NCBI GenBank assembly: GCA_947306365.1
Contig: CAMZGD010000018.1
Coordinates: 1-51,968, forward strand
From: an uncultured Bacteroidales bacterium
GTDB lineage: Bacteria > Bacteroidota > Bacteroidia > Bacteroidales > UBA932
Length of the DNA stretch: 51,968 nt
Direction: 5' to 3'
Shown: piece by piece, positions 28,133 through 51,968 of the stretch
Position numbering within the stretch: the stretch's first letter is position 1
How the letters are laid out: each line of letters starts with the position of its first letter
The notes under the pieces: generated by a model
Databases searched by the model: none
What the model saw: only the letters and a program-made list of their open reading frames with translations
Told to the model about the DNA's origin: nothing
Made by a program: the position numbers and the translations under genes

Positions 28133-28720
28133 ATGTTTCATCTTATCGCCCTCCCATACGCACCGGACGCGCTCGCGCCGGTCATCAGCGCCCGCACGCT
28201 GGAATTCCATCACGGAAAGCATCTGCAGGGCTATGTGGACAACCTGAACAAACTCATCGCCGGCACGCCGTTCGCGCAGATGCCGCTTGAGGAGATCGTA
28301 CGCCTGTCGGAAGGCGCCGTCTTCAACAACGCCGGCCAGATCCTGAACCACAACCTGTATTTCACGCAGTTCACCGACAAGCCTTCCGTTCCGCCGGCCG
28401 GGCGTCTGGCCGCACGGATCGAAAGGCAGTGGGGAACGCTCGAGGCCTTCAAGGCCGAATTCGAGGCCAAGGGAACGAGCCTTTTCGGCAGCGGCTGGGT
28501 ATGGCTCTCCGCCGACGCCGACGGCACGCTGGCCATTTCCCAGGAGCCCGGCGCCGGAAACCCCGTGGTCCGCGGCCTGCGGCCGCTCCTGACCTTCGAC
28601 GTGTGGGAGCACGCCTACTACCTCGACTGGCAGAACCGCCGCGCCGCCCACCTTTCCGCCCTCTGGCAGTTCGTCGACTGGACGGAGATTGCGCGCCGCT
28701 ATGATGAAGCGCTCGTTTGA
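28133..28720 (+). CDS. Superoxide dismutase, Fe/Mn type
   Basis: Dismutates superoxide to oxygen and hydrogen peroxide. The 195-residue protein has the four metal ligands in family context: EFHHGKHLQGYV, ILNHNLYF, and the C-terminal DVWEHAYYLDW. The metal (Fe, Mn or cambialistic, as in other Bacteroidales) cannot be settled by reading. It begins 3 bp after the ugd stop and is followed 26 bp later by rubrerythrin, so it is embedded in the sugar-nucleotide operon without any promoter of its own that I can see. Confidence 0.95.
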   Translation: MFHLIALPYAPDALAPVISARTLEFHHGKHLQGYVDNLNKLIAGTPFAQMPLEEIVRLSEGAVFNNAGQILNHNLYFTQFTDKPSVPPAGRLAARIERQWGTLEAFKAEFEAKGTSLFGSGWVWLSADADGTLAISQEPGAGNPVVRGLRPLLTFDVWEHAYYLDWQNRRAAHLSALWQFVDWTEIARRYDEALV

Positions 28721-28746
28721 ATTATTTATCAATCAATCAATTGAAT

Positions 28747-29286
28747 ATGGAACTCAAAGGAAGTAAAACTGAAAAGAATCTCCTCGAAGCGTTTGCCGGG
28801 GAGTCGATGGCAAGGAACAAGTATACCTATTTCGCTTCCAAGGCGAAGAAGGACGGCTATGTGCAGATCTCCAAGATCTTCGAGGAGACGGCCGACAACG
28901 AGAAGGAGCACGCGAAGATCTGGTACAAGTACCTGCATGGCGGTAAGGTGGCCGATACCAATGCCAACCTTGCGGACGCGGCTGCCGGCGAGCACTTCGA
29001 GTGGACGGATATGTATGCCCGCATGGCCGCCGAGGCCCGCGCGGAAGGCTTCGATGAAATCGCCGAGAAGTTCGAGATGGTCGGCGCCATCGAGCGCGAG
29101 CACGAGGCCCGCTATCGCAGGCTCCTGGCCAACATCGAGGAAGGTATCGTCTTTTCCCGCGACGGAGACTGCATCTGGCAATGCTCGAACTGCGGCCACA
29201 TCGTCATCGGTCCCAAGGCTCCCGAGGTTTGCCCGGTCTGCGACCATCCGCAGAGCTATTTCGAGCTGAAGGCTGAGAATTATTAG
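28747..29286 (+). CDS. rbr: Rubrerythrin
   Basis: A non-haem di-iron NADH-linked peroxidase that reduces hydrogen peroxide in anaerobes. The ferritin-like four-helix part (1-135) has the paired ExxH elements (EKEHAKIWYK, EREHEARYRR) and the C-terminal rubredoxin-like site has Cys146, Cys149, Cys162 and Cys165 (CSNCG...CPVC). Length (179) is normal. ATG 28747 gives MELKGSKTEKNLLEAFAGES; the region before it contains CAATCAATCAATT repeats and no SD. It would remove the peroxide made by the superoxide dismutase just upstream. Confidence 0.96.
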   Translation: MELKGSKTEKNLLEAFAGESMARNKYTYFASKAKKDGYVQISKIFEETADNEKEHAKIWYKYLHGGKVADTNANLADAAAGEHFEWTDMYARMAAEARAEGFDEIAEKFEMVGAIEREHEARYRRLLANIEEGIVFSRDGDCIWQCSNCGHIVIGPKAPEVCPVCDHPQSYFELKAENY

Positions 29287-32001: not shown

Positions 32002-33453
32002 ATGGATTTCATCTTGTCTGTCCTCCTGCTGGGTGCGGTGTCGTCGGGCGGTCCGCTGCCTTTCTGGATGACGTCGGGACAGTATGGCTTGATGCCGGAA
32101 CACAGCGGCGCGCTGGCGCTGGTCCAGGCTGGGACGCAATACGATGCGTCGAAGACGCTGCAATGGAAATGGGTCGCTTCGCTGGCCGCGAACCTTGACG
32201 CCGTGCCGGCTGCCGATTTCAACCTGATGGTTGATGAACTATATGGCAGCCTGAAGTGGAAAGCGTTGTCCTTGGACCTCGGCATGAAACGGACCGCGCT
32301 CGACTTTTTCGGATCGGCGCGGTCGCTGGGTTCGCTCTCGGTGACGGGCGGCAACGTGATCTGGAGCGGAAACGCCCGCACGATGCCGGGCTATACGCTG
32401 ACGCTCCATCCGGTGGCGGTGCCCGGAACGGGCCGTCACGTGTGGTTCTATGGCTCTTGGGGCGACTACCGCACGATGGACGACCGCTATGTGCCGGGCG
32501 CGCTGGTCCATCGGGCTGACCTGGGCCTGCGCTTCGACATCACGCGCCGGCTCGGCCTTCGGCTGGGCTTCGAGCACGATGCGCTGTGGGGCGGCACGAG
32601 CCCGAGCTACGGCAACCTGGCAACGGCCGCCAATTATTTCCGGGTGATCACGTTCCAGCCTGCATCGTCCGAGGGGCCGGTCAACGACCAGAACAACGTG
32701 ATCGGCGACCAGCTGGGGCGGAGACTGGTGCGGCTTGACTGGCAGGGTGACGGCTGGCGCCTGGCGCTCCAGCGCGACGTCCCGTTCGACGACGTGTCGA
32801 GCATGTGCTTCCGCAACTTTCCCGACGGCGTCAACACCCTCTGGTTCGGGTTCGACGACAAGGACCGCTGGGTGAGCGACATCGTGTACGAGTTCCAGTA
32901 CACGCGCTACCAGTCGGGTCCGATCAACGAATCGACGAGGGAATCGGAAAGCCAGGGACGCAGTCCGTTCGAGCAGTTCCGCTACTGGCTCAGCATCCGT
33001 GACGGCGGCGACAATTATTTCAACAACTGGGAGTACAGGTCTGGCTGGACGCATTTCGGCCATACCGTCGGCAACCCGCTGTTCTTCCCGGAAGGGACGC
33101 GCGACGGCTCCTGGACCGCGAAGCGGGTCGTGCTCGGCGTGGAGAACAACCGGGTACGGGCCCATCACCTGGGCGTTTCGGGCAAACTGTTCCGGAAATA
33201 TCCCTATAAACTGATGCTGACCTACAGCGAGAACTACGGCCTGTTCAAGGCGCGCTATGCCGGGAAGAATCCCTGGAACAAGGAATGGGGAACGGTGAAG
33301 GAGACGCCTGTGCCGCAGGTTTCCGGAGGATTCATGGGCGAGATCCCGCTCCGGCACGTCACGCTGACCTACGGCCTGTACGCCGACAAGGGCGTGCTGC
33401 TGCCCGACGCGCTGGGCGCTTCGCTGGGGCTTCGCTATCAATTCGGTCGATGA
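32002..33453 (+). CDS. wzi: Capsule assembly Wzi-family outer-membrane protein
   Basis: A 483-residue outer-membrane barrel of the capsule assembly Wzi family, which in E. coli binds capsule polymer at the cell surface. A short signal peptide (MDFILSVLLLGAVSSGG) precedes the family N-terminal motif PLPFWMTSGQYGLMP. The remainder alternates strand-like segments and ends SLGLRYQFGR, a barrel-type C-terminus. An in-frame TAA lies 18 bases before the ATG, so the start is secure. First gene behind the internal promoter. Confidence 0.85.
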   Translation: MDFILSVLLLGAVSSGGPLPFWMTSGQYGLMPEHSGALALVQAGTQYDASKTLQWKWVASLAANLDAVPAADFNLMVDELYGSLKWKALSLDLGMKRTALDFFGSARSLGSLSVTGGNVIWSGNARTMPGYTLTLHPVAVPGTGRHVWFYGSWGDYRTMDDRYVPGALVHRADLGLRFDITRRLGLRLGFEHDALWGGTSPSYGNLATAANYFRVITFQPASSEGPVNDQNNVIGDQLGRRLVRLDWQGDGWRLALQRDVPFDDVSSMCFRNFPDGVNTLWFGFDDKDRWVSDIVYEFQYTRYQSGPINESTRESESQGRSPFEQFRYWLSIRDGGDNYFNNWEYRSGWTHFGHTVGNPLFFPEGTRDGSWTAKRVVLGVENNRVRAHHLGVSGKLFRKYPYKLMLTYSENYGLFKARYAGKNPWNKEWGTVKETPVPQVSGGFMGEIPLRHVTLTYGLYADKGVLLPDALGASLGLRYQFGR

Positions 33454-33481: not shown

Positions 33482-33886
33482 ATGAAGACGGTGCTTACCT
33501 TCGGCGTTTTCGATATGCTCCATATCGGGCATATCCTGTTGTTTCAGCGGGCACGGGCGCTGGGCGACCGCCTGGTGGTCGCCGTGCAGGAAGACGACGT
33601 CATCCTGAAATACAAGCCCGACACGAGAATGGTCTACACGACGGCGGAACGGTGCTATATGGTCGGCGCACTCAAATATGTGGATGAGGTGATGACCTAT
33701 CGCGACGTGGACCGCGACATCGTCGGCATCGATTTCGACATCTTCGCCAAGGGCCCCGACCAGTGCCATGCCGGCTTCCGGCGGGCGGTTGCCTGGTGCG
33801 AAGCCCACGGGAAGGAAGTCGTGGTGATCCCGCGTACCGAGAACATATCCTCCACGATGCTGAAGGAATACACGAAATACCGGTAG
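33482..33886 (+). CDS. Cytidylyltransferase, glycerol-3-phosphate type (TagD-like)
   Basis: A compact 134-residue nucleotidyltransferase. FGVFDMLHIGH (7-17) holds the HxGH nucleotide-binding motif and RTENISST near 118 is the second family motif (RTEGISTT in TagD). TagD makes CDP-glycerol; close relatives make CDP-ethanolamine or CDP-choline. With the LicD-family gene in the same locus it probably supplies a CDP-activated alcohol for phosphodiester decoration of the polymer. It starts 28 bp after wzi and ends 1 bp before the GT2 fusion gene. Confidence 0.85.
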   Translation: MKTVLTFGVFDMLHIGHILLFQRARALGDRLVVAVQEDDVILKYKPDTRMVYTTAERCYMVGALKYVDEVMTYRDVDRDIVGIDFDIFAKGPDQCHAGFRRAVAWCEAHGKEVVVIPRTENISSTMLKEYTKYR

Positions 33887-33887
33887 C

Positions 33888-36200
33888 ATGAAGCTGAGTA
33901 TCATCATTCCCTATCACAACGCCGATCCCTGGATCGGAGGCATGCTTGATTCGCTGCTCGACCAGGATCTGCCGCACGACGACTATGAGATCGTGGTCGT
34001 GGACGACGGATCCACGGAAGAGCCGGTCACCCTGCACCGGTATGCGGCACAGTATCCCAACATCACCTGCCACCGGCAGGAGAATGCGGGGGTGACGACG
34101 GCGCGGAATACGGGGCTCGGCCTGGTGAAAGGGACGTGGATCTGGTTTTGCGACGCCGACGACTATGTGCTCCCGCAGTCGCTGGGCCGGCTCCTGGCCA
34201 TAGCGGAGGAGCGGCGGCTAGACATGCTGTTTTTCGATGCACGGTATGTGTATCCGGGAAAGCCGGTTGGCAGTCTCCGGAACGATTTCGATGCCGTGTC
34301 CGACGTTCGGACGGGCTGGGAATACGCCGTGAATCCGCCCGCGCCGATGGGAATGGCCGTGTGGCGCTTTCTGGTCCGTCGCGAATGCCTGGAAAACCCG
34401 CCGCTGCGCTTCCACGACGTGACGTATGGCGAAGGAAGCTGGTTCCAGTTGGAGCTGCTTCCGCGCATCCGGCGCGTGGCGCACGTCGCAGTGGATATCT
34501 ATTTCTACGTCCAGCGACAAGGGTCGATCCTGCATGCGAAGAAGCGGAAGAACTTCGAGCGGTATGCGTCTGACATGTATCAGTATCTGACCGCGCTGAC
34601 TGAGCGGATCGATGATGCTTCCGTGCCGTCCGATGTGCGGAAGCTGCTGGTCCAGCGGCGGGACTATGAGGCCTACCGGCTGCTGGGAAGCCTGTTGCGG
34701 TACTGTCCGGCGGACTTGTCCCGGTCGTATCTCGACAAGCTCGCGGCGATGGGCGCCTGGCCGCTGGCCCGTTCCGGCGGACGGAGCGAACGGCTGTACC
34801 GCCGGCTGATGAACCGGCGCGGTCTCTGGCTGGCGGCCTGCCGGCTCTACCGAAGGTTACGGCCGGTTGCGGCTGGTATCCTGTCGCTTGCGGTTGCCGT
34901 ATCGCTGGCGGCGGGATGCGGGCCCCGTATCGTGCCCGGTGCGGGCGGGATGCTGGAGGTTCGCTCCGCAGAACCCGTTGACGTGGTGTCGCTGGTGCTG
35001 CGGGACGTGCCGAACGAAGTGTTCTACAAGGATGTGTTTCTGGATGCGGGCATCGGCCTGACGTCGCGGACTTTCCTTTATGCGGCCGATTCAATGGGCC
35101 TTTCCCTGGAAGGCATCAGCCTTTCGCGGTCCAATGCTTCGGAAGCCGAGAAAGCGCTGCAGCAGCGCATCATCGCCGGTGATTCGCTCGACTGGAACGG
35201 CCGGCTCCTGTATCCCGACGGCCAGCCCCGCTACCGGGTGCTGTTCGTCAACGGGGGGAGTTCGACCACGCACGGAAAGTCGCTCGGCGAAACGGCGTTG
35301 CAGCGGATGCGGACATTCGTGGCAAACGGCGGCAGCTACGTGGGTACCTGTGCCGGGGCGTTCTTTGCCAGCCGGGGCACCAACAGCAATCCCGAGAACC
35401 CGTACTACCTGGCCGTCTGGCCCGGAATCGCCCATCGGACGGAAATGAAGAGTGTCTATTCCGGGGTGCGGATCGAAGCCGGTTCTCCGCTGCTCGCGTA
35501 CGATGATTTCGGCGGCGACGGCTATGTCAACAGCGTACGGCACAACCTGGGATGCTATGCCGGGAATCTTCCCGACGGGACGGAGGTCCTGGCGCGTTTC
35601 GACTATCCGGCCAGGAAGGATGTGCATCAGCAGCCCCTCGCGTGGGCGTACAAGCAGGATGAACGGACCGGCCGGGTGGTGATGGAAAGCTCCCATCCCG
35701 AAGAGGTATCGAAGGGAGAGCGGCTTGCCTTCACGGAATCCCTCATCGGCTATGCGCTCGACGGGGTCGGCGTGGTCCCGCTCAAGGGCGTGCTTGCGAA
35801 CGGCGAGCCGTGCGTGATGGACCGTCAGACGTGGGAGGATGATCCGGCGCACACGCGGATCGGCGACCTGCAGTGCCATCATTTCGCCGTCTACGTGCCT
35901 GCGGATGCCGTGCAGGTACGGTTCGCGATTGAAAGCGATGCCGATTGCGACCTGCAGCTGCGGCTGCGTCGCGACGGGTATGCCTTCCCGTCACAGGAAG
36001 ACTATGCGACGGATGGCGCGGGCGCCCGGCAGCAGCTGTCGTTCGACACCCTCGCGTCCGGTGTCTGGTATGTGTCGGTACAGTGCCTGACGACGGTGAC
36101 AGTGATGAATACGGATTATGGACAGGCGTATTCCGGCCGAACGGATGTATTGAACGGAATGCCTTATACGATAACGGTTTCCTGGTTGCGGAATGAATGA
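33888..36200 (+). CDS. Family 2 glycosyltransferase fused to a lipoprotein-like amidotransferase-fold module
   Basis: A 770-residue composite. Residues 1 to about 305 are a GT2 transferase: LSIIIPYHNADPW, VVVDDGS, ARNTGL and the metal-binding CDADDY. Residue 308 is Met and begins MNRRGLWLAACRLYRRLR, then a hydrophobic stretch ending AVSLAAGC (Cys344): a complete lipoprotein signal peptide in mid-protein. After it comes a class I amidotransferase/BPL_N-like domain with a nucleophile elbow VGTCAGAFFAS (Cys488) and SSHPEE (His603, Glu605), then a beta-rich domain resembling a pre-peptidase C-terminal module (about 665-765). No stop or frameshift separates the halves. An internal start at ATG 34809 could yield the lipoprotein alone. 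Function of the second half is not known to me. Confidence 0.85.
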   Translation: MKLSIIIPYHNADPWIGGMLDSLLDQDLPHDDYEIVVVDDGSTEEPVTLHRYAAQYPNITCHRQENAGVTTARNTGLGLVKGTWIWFCDADDYVLPQSLGRLLAIAEERRLDMLFFDARYVYPGKPVGSLRNDFDAVSDVRTGWEYAVNPPAPMGMAVWRFLVRRECLENPPLRFHDVTYGEGSWFQLELLPRIRRVAHVAVDIYFYVQRQGSILHAKKRKNFERYASDMYQYLTALTERIDDASVPSDVRKLLVQRRDYEAYRLLGSLLRYCPADLSRSYLDKLAAMGAWPLARSGGRSERLYRRLMNRRGLWLAACRLYRRLRPVAAGILSLAVAVSLAAGCGPRIVPGAGGMLEVRSAEPVDVVSLVLRDVPNEVFYKDVFLDAGIGLTSRTFLYAADSMGLSLEGISLSRSNASEAEKALQQRIIAGDSLDWNGRLLYPDGQPRYRVLFVNGGSSTTHGKSLGETALQRMRTFVANGGSYVGTCAGAFFASRGTNSNPENPYYLAVWPGIAHRTEMKSVYSGVRIEAGSPLLAYDDFGGDGYVNSVRHNLGCYAGNLPDGTEVLARFDYPARKDVHQQPLAWAYKQDERTGRVVMESSHPEEVSKGERLAFTESLIGYALDGVGVVPLKGVLANGEPCVMDRQTWEDDPAHTRIGDLQCHHFAVYVPADAVQVRFAIESDADCDLQLRLRRDGYAFPSQEDYATDGAGARQQLSFDTLASGVWYVSVQCLTTVTVMNTDYGQAYSGRTDVLNGMPYTITVSWLRNE

Positions 36201-37650
36201 TCGGGACCTGAAGGAAAAGACGGTTTCAGGAATGATCTGGTCGAGTGTCGGCCGGTTCGGGACGATGGCCCTGAGCTTCGTGTCGAACCTGATCCTGGCG
36301 CGCCTGCTGATGCCTTCGGATTTTGGCGTCATCGGTATGCTCCACGTATTTATTGCCGTGTCGGGTGTATTCGTGACGGCTGGGTTCGGCTCGGCGCTCA
36401 TTCAGAAAAAGAATCCCACGCACATCGATTACACGTCGGTCTTCTGGTGGAATCTTGGGGCGGCCATCGTGTTCTACTGGATTCTCTTCGCCTGCGGACC
36501 GGCGATCGCCCGTTTCTATGCGATGCCGGAACTCTGTCCCGTTCTCCGTGTGCAGAGCCTGTCGCTGATTATCCAGGCTTTCTCGGTGGTGCAGACCAAC
36601 CAGCTCAGGAAGCAGCTCCGGTTCCGTGAGCTGTCGATGCGGAGCCTGGGCGCCGCTTTCATCGGGACTATCGTGGGCGTTGTGATGGCATTCCGGGGCT
36701 ACAACTACTGGAGCCTTGTCTGCGCGAGCCTGGTGTCCAGCTTTACGGGCGTGCTGCTGCTCTGGCGACTGAGCAGCTGGCGGCCCACGCGAGAATTCAG
36801 CATCCGGTCACTGAAGGAACTCTTTGCCTTCGGCGGCCTGATGGCCCTTTCCGGACTGGTGGAGACCGTCTATACGAACCTGCAGAGCCTGATCATCGGC
36901 AAATGGTATTCGCCGAAGGACCTGGGCTATTACACCCAGGCCCGCAAACTGGAGGACGTGCCTACGGATTCGTTGTCGTATATCGTCAATCAGGTTTCTT
37001 TCCCGGTGTTCTCTTCGCTGCAGGACGAAAAGGACCGGCTGGTGGCCACGATGCGGAAGAACGCCAAGGCGATCAACTATCTCAATTTCCCGCTGATGTC
37101 CCTGCTGATCGTCATCGCGCGGCCGTTGATCACCCTGCTGTACGGCGCCAAATGGGAAGTATCGATCCCGTATTTCCAGATTCTCTGCATTTCGAGCCTG
37201 GTGTTCTCGATGAACACGCTCAACACGAATGTCATCAAATCGCTGGGGAAGGCGAAGCTCTATTTCTGGGTTCAGCTCATCAAGCGTCTGATCGGCCTGG
37301 TGCTGATCATCCTGGGCGCCCGTGCCGGAATGCTTCCGTTGATGTGGGCTCTCACGGCGATCGGCTATACCAGCATCGTCATCAATATGTATGTGAACGG
37401 CCGGCTCATCGGCTACGGCATCGGGCCGCAGGTCCGCGACCTGGCTAGGTTTTTCACCGCGGCGCTGGTGGTGGCGGGCATCGTGTATCTGCTGGGGCGC
37501 GTCCTGCCCCTGCATCCTTATCTGGTGATGATCGTGCAGATCGTGGTGTATGTGGCGCTCTATATCGCCTGCTCCCGGTTATTCAAGTTCGATAGCTATT
37601 ACGGCTATCTGGGCATCCTGAAACAATATCTTAAACGCTTGAAGAAATGA
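36193..37650 (+). CDS. wzx: Polysaccharide flippase (Wzx, MOP superfamily)
   Basis: A 485-residue integral membrane protein with about 12-14 hydrophobic helices across the full length. The N-terminus (LKEKTVSGMIWSSVGRFG) and ARLLMPSDFGVIGM are typical of WzxC-like oligosaccharide flippases. It would move undecaprenyl-linked repeat units across the inner membrane. The gene overlaps the preceding fusion gene by 8 bases and its TGA overlaps the next ATG, so it is tightly coupled to both. Confidence 0.9.
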   Translation: MNDRDLKEKTVSGMIWSSVGRFGTMALSFVSNLILARLLMPSDFGVIGMLHVFIAVSGVFVTAGFGSALIQKKNPTHIDYTSVFWWNLGAAIVFYWILFACGPAIARFYAMPELCPVLRVQSLSLIIQAFSVVQTNQLRKQLRFRELSMRSLGAAFIGTIVGVVMAFRGYNYWSLVCASLVSSFTGVLLLWRLSSWRPTREFSIRSLKELFAFGGLMALSGLVETVYTNLQSLIIGKWYSPKDLGYYTQARKLEDVPTDSLSYIVNQVSFPVFSSLQDEKDRLVATMRKNAKAINYLNFPLMSLLIVIARPLITLLYGAKWEVSIPYFQILCISSLVFSMNTLNTNVIKSLGKAKLYFWVQLIKRLIGLVLIILGARAGMLPLMWALTAIGYTSIVINMYVNGRLIGYGIGPQVRDLARFFTAALVVAGIVYLLGRVLPLHPYLVMIVQIVVYVALYIACSRLFKFDSYYGYLGILKQYLKRLKK

Positions 37651-39565: not shown

Positions 39566-41392
39566 ATGGAAACCGCATATACGATCGTCGAAAAGCCTGC
39601 CGCTATTTCCTGGGAAGCGATACGCGACCTTGTCTGGACGGCTCATTCCGATAACCGGAACCAGGGGATTCTTGTTCGCAACACGTTCTTGTCTGCCGAT
39701 GAGATTCGGGACAAGATCGGGTCGCAGGGAAAAATATGGGTAGCCTTGTCTGATGACAAATTAATCGGATCTTATGCTTGGACGCCCCGGTACTTTGACT
39801 TGTGGAGTGGCCGTGGAATGTATGCGTATTGCTGTCTTGGGGCAGTATTGCCGGACTACCGGGAAAAAGGTATTTTTCGGGAGCTATGTCATATCTGTGA
39901 AAAGGAGGCTAGGCTCCAGGGCTATTCCTGGCTGATGTTCGATGTCCATGCCTTGAACCGTCGAATGCAGGAGATCAGCGAACAGGGCGGTTTCCGCAAG
40001 GTCGGATGCCAGTATTGGGGGGAGCATTTCAGTTACCTGATGGTCAAATGGCTGGAAGGAAATCCCCCTTCCCGTCTCCGATGCAACTGGCGCTTTTTCT
40101 TGTCTTCACTGAAGGCGAAGTTGAAGAAGCCTTTTGTGCCTGTACAGACAGCATCCTGCCTGCCCGACAGGGCGGTAATCATCGGACAAGGTTTTACGGG
40201 GCGATTGGGTCTCGTGCGTTCACTGGCTGCGGCCGGTTGTTCGAGCCGGATCATCGTCCTTCATCCCCGCTCAAAGGATGGAAGGCCCTATGAGGCGAAG
40301 AATCAGCCAGATGCGCTGAGTAAGTATGTGACGGAGTGCTTTTACTGCGAAAATTACAATGAGGAGATGCTCCTGGACTACTTGCTCGACAAGTGCGCAG
40401 AATCGGGAAAGAAACCGCTGATCGTGCCGGACAATGACTTTTCCGCCGCTTTTGTGGATGCGCATCGGGAAACGTTGTCTGATCATTTCCTGTTGCCGCA
40501 CGGGAAGGGAGATGCGGATTCGGTTGAGGCATGGATGGATAAATCGCGGCAGAAAGCGCTGGCGCGCGCCGTGGGGTTAAATGTCGCCGAGGCTTCTGTC
40601 GTCGAGTCGGGCGATTATGGCGGACGGTTGCCTTCCGCTGTCCATTATCCGTGTTTCGTTAAGCCTTTGGCTTCACTGGCGGGCGGAAAGATGTGGCTTG
40701 CGCGTTGCAATGAGGAAGCCGAATTGCGGAAATGCATGAAGTATGCCTATGACCGGCGGGGCAATCTCCGGATGCTCGTTGAAGATTTCAAGGAAATTGA
40801 GACGGAATATGCCACGGTCGGTTTCACGGACGGGGAAGATGTGGTGATTCCCGGTATCCTGCAAATTGTCCAGATGGGGAAAGGATGGCACTTCGGCGTG
40901 GCGGTACAGGGAAAAGTGCTCCCTCCGGACGGCTGGGACGAGATACTGGACAAATTCAGGGAACTGGTTCGCCGAACGGGTTTCAAAGGCTTGTTTGACA
41001 TAGATTTCTACAGAAGTGAAGGGAAGATCTTTTTCTGTGAACTGAACCTTCGTTTTGGCGGCTCCGGCTATGCCTTCACACGGCTTGGGGTGAACTTGCC
41101 CCAAATGATGCTGCAGTCCTTCTCCGGAAAACCGTGGGATCGGGATGCGCGGATCGACAGTTCCGCTTATTATTTCAATGAGCGGATGGGACGGGATGAA
41201 TGGTATTTTGGCCGAATCTCCTGGAAAGCGTATTGCCAGATCCGCGATGCCTCCCAGATCCGTTTCCTTCAGGACAAGAATGACCCGGTACCCGAACGGG
41301 CTTATCGCCGGGAGACGGCGATGCTTTGTATTAAGTTGTTTTTCAAGAAATTGACGGGTTCGTTACAATACCACACCCCGTATCAGCAATGA
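39566..41392 (+). CDS. GNAT acetyltransferase fused to an ATP-grasp ligase
   Basis: A 608-residue fusion. Residues 1 to about 165 look like a GNAT N-acyltransferase (acyl-CoA loop LGAVLPDYREKGIFRELC). Residues about 200-565 form an ATP-grasp carboxylate-amine ligase: substrate-binding IVPDNDFSAAFVD, nucleotide-binding PCFVKPLASLAGGK, and the metal-binding end FDIDFY...FFCELNLRFGGSGYA. This second part is clearly paralogous to the next gene. Codon use is less GC-rich than in the next gene. A plausible role is joining an amino acid to a carboxylate and acylating one partner; the substrates cannot be told from sequence. Confidence 0.84.
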   Translation: METAYTIVEKPAAISWEAIRDLVWTAHSDNRNQGILVRNTFLSADEIRDKIGSQGKIWVALSDDKLIGSYAWTPRYFDLWSGRGMYAYCCLGAVLPDYREKGIFRELCHICEKEARLQGYSWLMFDVHALNRRMQEISEQGGFRKVGCQYWGEHFSYLMVKWLEGNPPSRLRCNWRFFLSSLKAKLKKPFVPVQTASCLPDRAVIIGQGFTGRLGLVRSLAAAGCSSRIIVLHPRSKDGRPYEAKNQPDALSKYVTECFYCENYNEEMLLDYLLDKCAESGKKPLIVPDNDFSAAFVDAHRETLSDHFLLPHGKGDADSVEAWMDKSRQKALARAVGLNVAEASVVESGDYGGRLPSAVHYPCFVKPLASLAGGKMWLARCNEEAELRKCMKYAYDRRGNLRMLVEDFKEIETEYATVGFTDGEDVVIPGILQIVQMGKGWHFGVAVQGKVLPPDGWDEILDKFRELVRRTGFKGLFDIDFYRSEGKIFFCELNLRFGGSGYAFTRLGVNLPQMMLQSFSGKPWDRDARIDSSAYYFNERMGRDEWYFGRISWKAYCQIRDASQIRFLQDKNDPVPERAYRRETAMLCIKLFFKKLTGSLQYHTPYQQ

Positions 41393-42597
41393 GCAGTATC
41401 CCTGTCGTCATCATCGGTCACGGTTATACCTCGCGGCTGGCGGTCATCCGGTCGCTGGGAGCGATTGGCTGCAGGATTACGGTCATCGTACAGGCCTTCC
41501 ACGGGCGGCTCGGCCGCTGGATGCGCTTCGACGGCGGAACACCGGTGGACTGCTGCAGCAAGTACGTTGACCGGTTCCTGTGGTGTCCGGCCGAATCGGA
41601 GTCGGAGATGGTGCGGCTGCTGCTGGACAAGTGCACGGACCCGCAGCAGAAGGTGGTGATCATTCCCGACAGTGATTTCGCGGCGGCCGTGATCGACCGG
41701 CATGCGACGGAATTGTCGCCGTATTTCCTGTTCCCGCACGTGGGCGATACCCCCGGCGGGCTGGAACGCTGGATGGACAAGTCCGCCCAGAAGTCACTGG
41801 CCCGCGAAGTCGGGCTGCCGGTGGCCGATTCGGTGGTGGTTCCGGTATCGCCGCAAGGCTTCACCCTGCCGGAAGGGATTGCGTATCCCTGTTTCACCAA
41901 GCCGGTGCAGACCATCCACGGTGGAAAGACACTGCATCGCTGCGACGATGCGGCGGCGCTGCATCGGGCACTGGCCGAAACGGCCGCGCACGGCGCGTCT
42001 GCGGTGCTGGTCGAACGGTTTATGCCCATCGGTACGGAATATGCCGTGCTGGGGTGTGCCTGCGGGACGGAAGTCGTCATTCCCGGCGTCATCGTGTTTA
42101 CGGAAAACGGCCGGCGGCATTTCGGCATCGCCCGTACCGGGAAAGTCGTGCCGCCGGACGGCTTTGAGGACCTGCTTGGACGGTTTCGTGCATTCGTGCG
42201 CCGGACCGGTTTCACCGGTCTCTTCGACATTGATTTCTACGAAAGCGGCGGTACGCTGTATTTCAGTGAGCTGAACCTCCGGTTCGGCGGATCCGGCTAT
42301 GCGGTCACCCGACAGGGCGTCAACCTGCCGGCGCTGTTTGTCCGTTCGGTCTGCGGGGAAGACACCGCCGGGATGCCCCGGAAAGTGACGGCCTCCGCCA
42401 CTTTCGTCAACGAGCGGATGTGCATCGACGACTGGAGTTTTTATTATCTGACGGAAGCGGAATGCCGTGCGCGCATCGCGTCCGCCGACATCCGCTTTGT
42501 CGCGGATGCGGATGATCCGGGTCCGCAACGAAAGCTGGACCGGTATTTCCGGCAGCAGAAGATCAAGCGCGTATTGCGGAAATGGCTGAAAGCGTAA
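41389..42597 (+). CDS. ATP-grasp ligase, paralogue of the upstream fusion
   Basis: A 402-residue stand-alone ATP-grasp enzyme. VVIIGHGYTSRLAVIRSL is a Rossmann-like pre-ATP-grasp segment, followed by IIPDSDFAAAVID, CFTKPVQTIHGGK and FDIDFYESGGTLYFSELN, LRFGGSGYA. The same blocks occur in the same order in the preceding gene, including ERWMDKSAQKSLAREVGL against EAWMDKSRQKALARAVGL. It starts in the preceding stop (ATGA) and overlaps licD by 16 bases. Ligates a carboxylate to an amine by an acyl-phosphate; substrate unknown. Confidence 0.86.
   Translation: MSSIPVVIIGHGYTSRLAVIRSLGAIGCRITVIVQAFHGRLGRWMRFDGGTPVDCCSKYVDRFLWCPAESESEMVRLLLDKCTDPQQKVVIIPDSDFAAAVIDRHATELSPYFLFPHVGDTPGGLERWMDKSAQKSLAREVGLPVADSVVVPVSPQGFTLPEGIAYPCFTKPVQTIHGGKTLHRCDDAAALHRALAETAAHGASAVLVERFMPIGTEYAVLGCACGTEVVIPGVIVFTENGRRHFGIARTGKVVPPDGFEDLLGRFRAFVRRTGFTGLFDIDFYESGGTLYFSELNLRFGGSGYAVTRQGVNLPALFVRSVCGEDTAGMPRKVTASATFVNERMCIDDWSFYYLTEAECRARIASADIRFVADADDPGPQRKLDRYFRQQKIKRVLRKWLKA

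Positions 42598-50164: not shown

Positions 50165-51968
<1,804 letters not shown>

Follow-up and report, generated by a model that had tools for sequence, protein, structure and literature searches.

Several described systems resemble parts of the gene considered here, which occupies positions 33888–36200 on the + strand of contig CAMZGD010000018.1 (assembly GCA_947306365.1) from an uncultured Bacteroidales bacterium (lineage UBA932). The stretch examined, called the window below, is the whole contig of 51,968 nucleotides, and it belongs to a 2.1-Mb draft genome of 34 contigs that is 87% complete. In this gene, a glycosyltransferase (GT) is joined to a lipoprotein-type module. fbcH of Bradyrhizobium encodes a cytochrome b/c1 polyprotein that is cut by a type I enzyme at an internal signal, giving two electron-transport proteins. 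The likeness to fbcH lies in one chain with an internal signal sequence that would yield two proteins, the cleavage being predicted in the present case; the difference is that a type I enzyme acts there, whereas the fusion has a predicted type II (lipoprotein) signal. In glycosyltransferase-deacetylase membrane fusions, a single chain both transfers sugar in the cytoplasm and carries out a modification outside it. They share the two-sided plan predicted here but belong to other catalytic families and have no lipoprotein signal. Within the same genus and family, BPL_N (PF09825) lipoproteins contain the same module, the same catalytic triad and the same PPC-like end, mostly with a lipoprotein signal, and two of them lie in the same slot beside wzx. 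These lipoproteins begin with their own signal, whereas in the fusion a cytoplasmic glycosyltransferase comes first. PdxT, the glutaminase subunit of pyridoxal phosphate synthase, has the class-I glutamine amidotransferase fold and differs from the fusion module, which is predicted to be exported, is followed by a PPC-like domain and has the glutamate of the PdxT GGES motif in 1 of 60 aligned rows. The parts are known, and the joint is new as far as the open-access literature shows; the original prediction, made from the sequence alone, knew of no described system of this architecture, and no description of one was found in that openly available part of the literature.

The gene is a single stop-free frame of 770 codons. 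It encodes, in order, a GT2 glycosyltransferase, a 17-residue hydrophobic segment leading to Cys344, an amidotransferase-fold module and a PPC-like beta domain. Pfam places PF00535 (GT2) at residues 4–122 (E 1.3e-27; 97.2 bits against a cut-off of 23.3), and the Asp-rich DXD-type motif expected of GT2 enzymes (D89, D91 and D92) is invariant in 19 aligned GTs. PF09825 (BPL_N) is found above its cut-off at residues 451–497 (E 8.8e-11), and this match together with the fold assigns the module to the family. The C-terminal domain is named PPC-like only, because PF04151 at residues 666–732 falls below its cut-off (E 3.4e-4; 21.9 bits against 25.9), although Foldseek finds that the fold resembles the PPC domain of 5sv5 (E 3.8e-5, target TM 0.72). 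Cys488, His603 and Glu605 are invariant in all 60 aligned module rows. The claim that a GT2 domain, a lipoprotein-type signal, a Cys488-His603-Glu605 set and a PPC-like domain share one frame is borne out. The features of the gene are as follows.

33888..34865, + strand: GT2 (GT-A fold) glycosyltransferase, residues 1–326, with PF00535 and D89/D91/D92; the closest unfused relatives end at 327–328 residues
34809..34811, + strand: internal ATG (Met308) within the conserved GT tail, an unlikely start in a poor start context
34866..34916, + strand: hydrophobic hinge, residues 327–343, probably the former hydrophobic region of a lipoprotein signal and a would-be membrane helix (from sequence, alignment and model)
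34917..34919, + strand: Cys344, predicted lipidation site, present in 10 of 10 fused rows inside a variable hinge
35025..35765, + strand: class-I amidotransferase-fold domain (BPL_N), about residues 380–626
35349..35351, + strand: Cys488, presumed triad nucleophile
35694..35702, + strand: His603-Pro604-Glu605, remainder of the triad
35874..36191, + strand: PPC-like beta domain, about residues 663–768

Taken as a whole, the sequence evidence gives about an even chance that the product is a fused glycosyltransferase and lipoprotein-type module that is inserted across the membrane, lipidated and likely cut at Cys344. The fused gene itself is real and recurrent. The GT is also carried by 7 of the 120 best module homologues taken in from 1243 found, and the fusion occurs in two further genomes of the genus (G015 and G023). 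The nine other fused sequences are 59–97% identical to the window protein, and the ten fused rows, which represent seven distinct versions, align over their full length with no stop. Among 40 genomes of the genus, the GT is found at E 1e-30 or better in seven, of which three are fused (the source genome, G015 and G023) and four unfused. Among 398 genomes drawn from the family, it is found at E 1e-40 in nine, the same three fused and six unfused. In these two surveys, a weak match in G003 (33%) and the matches in G154 and G352 were scored as unfused by open-frame length alone. No fusion was found outside the genus among the genomes searched, and the seven database proteins carry no genus assignment. 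A scan of genome contigs gave at least 586 stretches from at least 445 relatives, with 79 loci kept; among the matches listed, the closest full-length rows were L048 (63%) and L095 (42% over the whole GT), and the comparison for fusion covered G023, which has a contig as long as that of L048. A sequencing or assembly error, or a decaying gene, might be considered since the source genome is a draft and one protein among the GT homologues, P0124, is a likely chimera. This explanation is very improbable, because fused frames recur in three separate genomes with the same neighbours, the further fused sequences are unbroken and the triad is retained in the aligned fused rows. The suspicion that a stop had been missed and that relatives are never fused therefore fails. 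P0124, a 424-residue GT with a different membrane segment, was set aside as a likely assembly chimera on account of its abrupt departure from the GT sequence and a longest contig of 1.8 kb.

Conservation along the chain draws attention to the hinge. The seven fused versions all agree at 125 of 300 positions in the GT and at 176 of 395 in the module. None of the 17 positions between residues 327 and 343 is invariant, and this segment is hydrophobic in the eight rows scored. Four of the 32 positions from 344 to 375 are fixed, namely Cys344, Arg347, Leu369 and Pro375. A fixed Cys344 inside a free-running hinge argues for lipidation. In the window protein, Cys344 is directly preceded by VAAGILSLAVAVSLAAG and closes the lipobox LAAGC, so that a hydrophobic stretch and a small residue at position −1 are both present; the signal does not stand at the N-terminus of the chain, since 343 residues precede Cys344. 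One match to LspA (signal peptidase II) and two to Lgt were found in the source genome. The residue at −1 is Ala, Ser or Gly in 87 of the 96 unfused members of the family for which a Cys was called and in 26 of 29 lipoprotein-like N-termini sampled from the source genome, tallies that follow simple rules instead of a signal predictor and include some miscalled rows (e.g., P0027).

Several observations weigh against lipidation and cleavage at this site. The residue before Cys344 is Gly in three of the seven versions and Cys in the other four, where Thr or Val precedes if the first Cys is used, and none of the 29 lipoprotein-like N-termini sampled from the genome has Thr, Cys or Val at −1. The Cys-Cys versions count against a general cleavage rule, while the AAGC of the window itself is regular. 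Among six standalone relatives in the alignment with the fusions, two have Ser in the Cys344 column, so a lipid is dispensable in the family, and 17 of 113 unfused rows have no Cys by the simple rule and were excluded from the 96. The open-access literature searched gave no example of cleavage by LspA after a cytoplasmic domain of 343 residues.

The origin of the hinge is suggested by the slot in which the gene lies, between a cytidylyltransferase gene and wzx. Its borders in the window are as follows.

33482..33886, + strand: cytidylyltransferase-like protein (PF01467), left border, also left of the slot in G015, G023, G011, G039 and G053
36193..37650, + strand: Wzx-type flippase (PF13440, E 8.3e-96), right border, overlapping the fusion by 8 bases

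The window, G015 and G023 have the fusion in this slot. In G011, the same slot holds the GT alone, with wzx directly after it. In G039 and in G053, which belongs to another genus, the slot is occupied by the module by itself, which has an ordinary lipoprotein signal at its N-terminus (MKRTVSILLLGCALLALPAACGRQ and MQTGWIRGRLFAASAMTLLVMVLSGC, respectively), and G039 has a GT relative (44%) about 2.5 kb from the slot. G018 was left out of the slot count, as 1.1 kb between its GT and wzx is unassigned and its left neighbour lies beyond the contig. The closest unfused GTs stop at residue 327–328, which is the start of the hydrophobic segment in the fusion. Given separate halves in the same slot and unfused GTs that end at the hinge, it is most likely that a GT gene and a lipoprotein gene merged, that the lipoprotein lost its own start and that its inherited signal became the internal hinge. 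Two separate genes in relatives had been named as a sign of an artefact; such genes do exist, but so does the fusion, in relatives as well.

The history of the two halves may be more complex than a single merger. Fused versions P0014 and P0018 share 95% in GT residues 1–300 and 70% in the module, whereas P0014 and P0015 share 63% and 91%, respectively. In the GT tree, the three closest unfused GTs form a group with the window version (88/91, not firm), and P0003 clusters with P0010, P0014 and P0018 (92/97). In the module tree, which lacks one row (the second half of P0005, dropped by the program), the window version groups with P0003 (100/98), and the standalone lipoprotein P0016 nests among fused rows. 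Because the two trees disagree, the halves were probably swapped at or near the hinge, or else joined and separated on more than one occasion. A single fusion change suffices in 7% of 200 bootstrap GT trees, so one origin remains compatible with the GT tree; the well-supported branches of the module tree require two changes or more, a number that a single gain followed by a single loss would satisfy. The evidence for swapping comes largely from metagenome proteins. P0015, a single sequence, is possibly a chimeric assembly, which seems less likely for P0018 with its 88 member sequences, and the P0014 type is confirmed in a genome by L041.

An internal start would give two products from one frame. 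In this alternative, initiation at ATG 34809 yields a lipoprotein with a 36-residue signal besides the full-length product, as all fused versions have Met308, with a basic stretch and the hydrophobic segment downstream of it. Met308 is equally invariant in unfused GTs, however, being conserved in all 19 aligned GTs, 16 of which are unfused. The upstream context of ATG 34809 scores −5.03, a value as low as which is reached by 2% of 104 confident starts and 48% of 1637 internal ATGs of the same genome, sets that include the window's own genes. The mean score is 4.82 for starts and −4.32 for internal ATGs, so ATG 34809 resembles an average internal ATG, whereas ATG 33888 (4.25) resembles a real start. 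No further in-frame ATG, GTG or TTG occurs between Met308 and Cys344. Synonymous-site conservation around the internal ATG was compared among three DNA sequences, too few for a verdict. ATG 34809 is thus an unlikely start, and the proposal of two proteins arising from it, with roughly a small minority chance, is disfavoured.

The full-length structural model (predicted local distance difference test, pLDDT, 87.2; predicted template modelling score, pTM, 0.56) contains one helix, residues 311–340, that connects the GT tail to the hydrophobic segment; confidence is low at 332–362. Judged by the modest pTM alone, nothing indicates that the two domains are fixed relative to each other. According to the positive-inside rule, the basic flank of a membrane segment stays inside; the basic GT tail before the hydrophobic stretch therefore predicts the GT inside and the module outside. 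The chain would be inserted by Sec, with the transferase remaining cytoplasmic and the module becoming periplasmic. Lgt would then lipidate Cys344, and LspA would likely cut there. The products would be a transferase with a one-helix membrane tail and a lipoprotein released to the periplasm or outer membrane. It is possible, at somewhat less than an even chance, that the gene encodes a two-compartment bacterial polyprotein, in which the cut by signal peptidase II yields equal amounts of a transferase with a membrane tail and an amidase-like lipoprotein in the periplasm, and the hinge is the swap point.

The same topology would also serve an uncut single-pass inner-membrane protein, lipidated or not, with the GT inside and the module outside, that couples sugar transfer to a periplasmic step. 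The hydrophobic segment and the continuous helix fit such a protein, as do the four versions whose lipobox departs from Ala, Ser or Gly at −1, and the persistence of the fusion in several versions suggests that it is perhaps useful as one chain. A plain anchor does not explain why Cys344 is kept in all seven versions while the surrounding hinge varies; in addition, the halves occur alone and seem to swap, and the model shows no sign of domain packing. The uncut protein is a tentative alternative of lower probability, which ranks close behind the cut precursor. The original prediction had regarded segment 325–345 as a membrane anchor joining both sides. Its hydrophobic character stands, but the segment appears to be an inherited lipoprotein signal, and since the two genes occur apart as well as fused among relatives, a permanent link through the membrane is no more likely than processing at Cys344.

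The activity of the module can be approached through its family. His462 is invariant in the 60 module rows alongside the triad. The glutamate of the PdxT GGES motif, which we take to be the glutamine-site residue, corresponds to Ser458 in the window protein, and its column contains S in 24 rows, D in 11, N in 10, K in 9, R in 3, T in 2 and E in 1. Because the triad is kept while the PdxT glutamate is almost always replaced, we read the module as an amide-handling enzyme with a substrate other than glutamine. That this substrate is an amide on a glycan is a guess. No Protein Data Bank chain was found by sequence at E 0.01 with a profile of the 60 module sequences, and a single module sequence matches PdxT weakly (E 0.018). 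BPL_N matches occur in 33 of 40 genomes of the genus, with up to 35 per genome, and the fused copy is the only one in the source genome. Some species of the genus have greatly expanded sets of BPL_N lipoproteins (35 matches in G022, 18 in G032 and 17 in G013). In G022, G032, G013, G016, G010 and G030 (loci L147–L156), copies sometimes lie side by side, and the spacing between signal and module varies. Nine proteins of 865–879 residues (P0004–P0009 and P0011–P0013) match the module, all without a lipobox-like Cys by the simple rule; P0004, the one read through, contains the module twice in tandem.

The surrounding polysaccharide locus encodes ATP-grasp-like, acetyltransferase, PGA_cap and LicD domains, together with Wzx and a Wzy-like protein that is below cut-off. 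Two adjacent, related ATP-grasp-like proteins (39566–41392 and 41389–42597), the first with an N-terminal acetyltransferase domain, lie beside the PGA_cap and LicD genes, and this arrangement suggests amino-acid or similar glycan decoration. Given these ATP-grasp-like and acetyltransferase domains in the locus, and a triad retained without the PdxT glutamine-site glutamate, the module may act by hydrolysis or transfer on an amide of the exported glycan or of a group that decorates it, which is the weakest step of the proposed mechanism. A 483-residue protein (32002–33453) is conserved beside the slot, with 73% identity in G015 and two copies in G023 (69% and 58%); at the thresholds applied, it matches neither a Pfam nor an NCBIfam family. 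Superoxide dismutase and rubrerythrin genes (28133–29286) occur within the polysaccharide cluster, between sugar-nucleotide genes. The protein at the right end of the window (50165–51967) is 97% identical to a G011 protein at L042 4059–5861, far above the 58–85% of the other genes matched in L042, and this difference hints that exchange took place recently around the locus.

If the chain is cut, a lipoprotein signal would be shown to function hundreds of residues away from the N-terminus, downstream of a folded enzyme of the cytoplasm, and signal predictors restricted to N-termini would overlook such signals. If it is uncut, a two-sided enzyme would couple sugar transfer to a periplasmic step of polysaccharide assembly. 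Either way, the relatives with separate genes provide a ready natural comparison.
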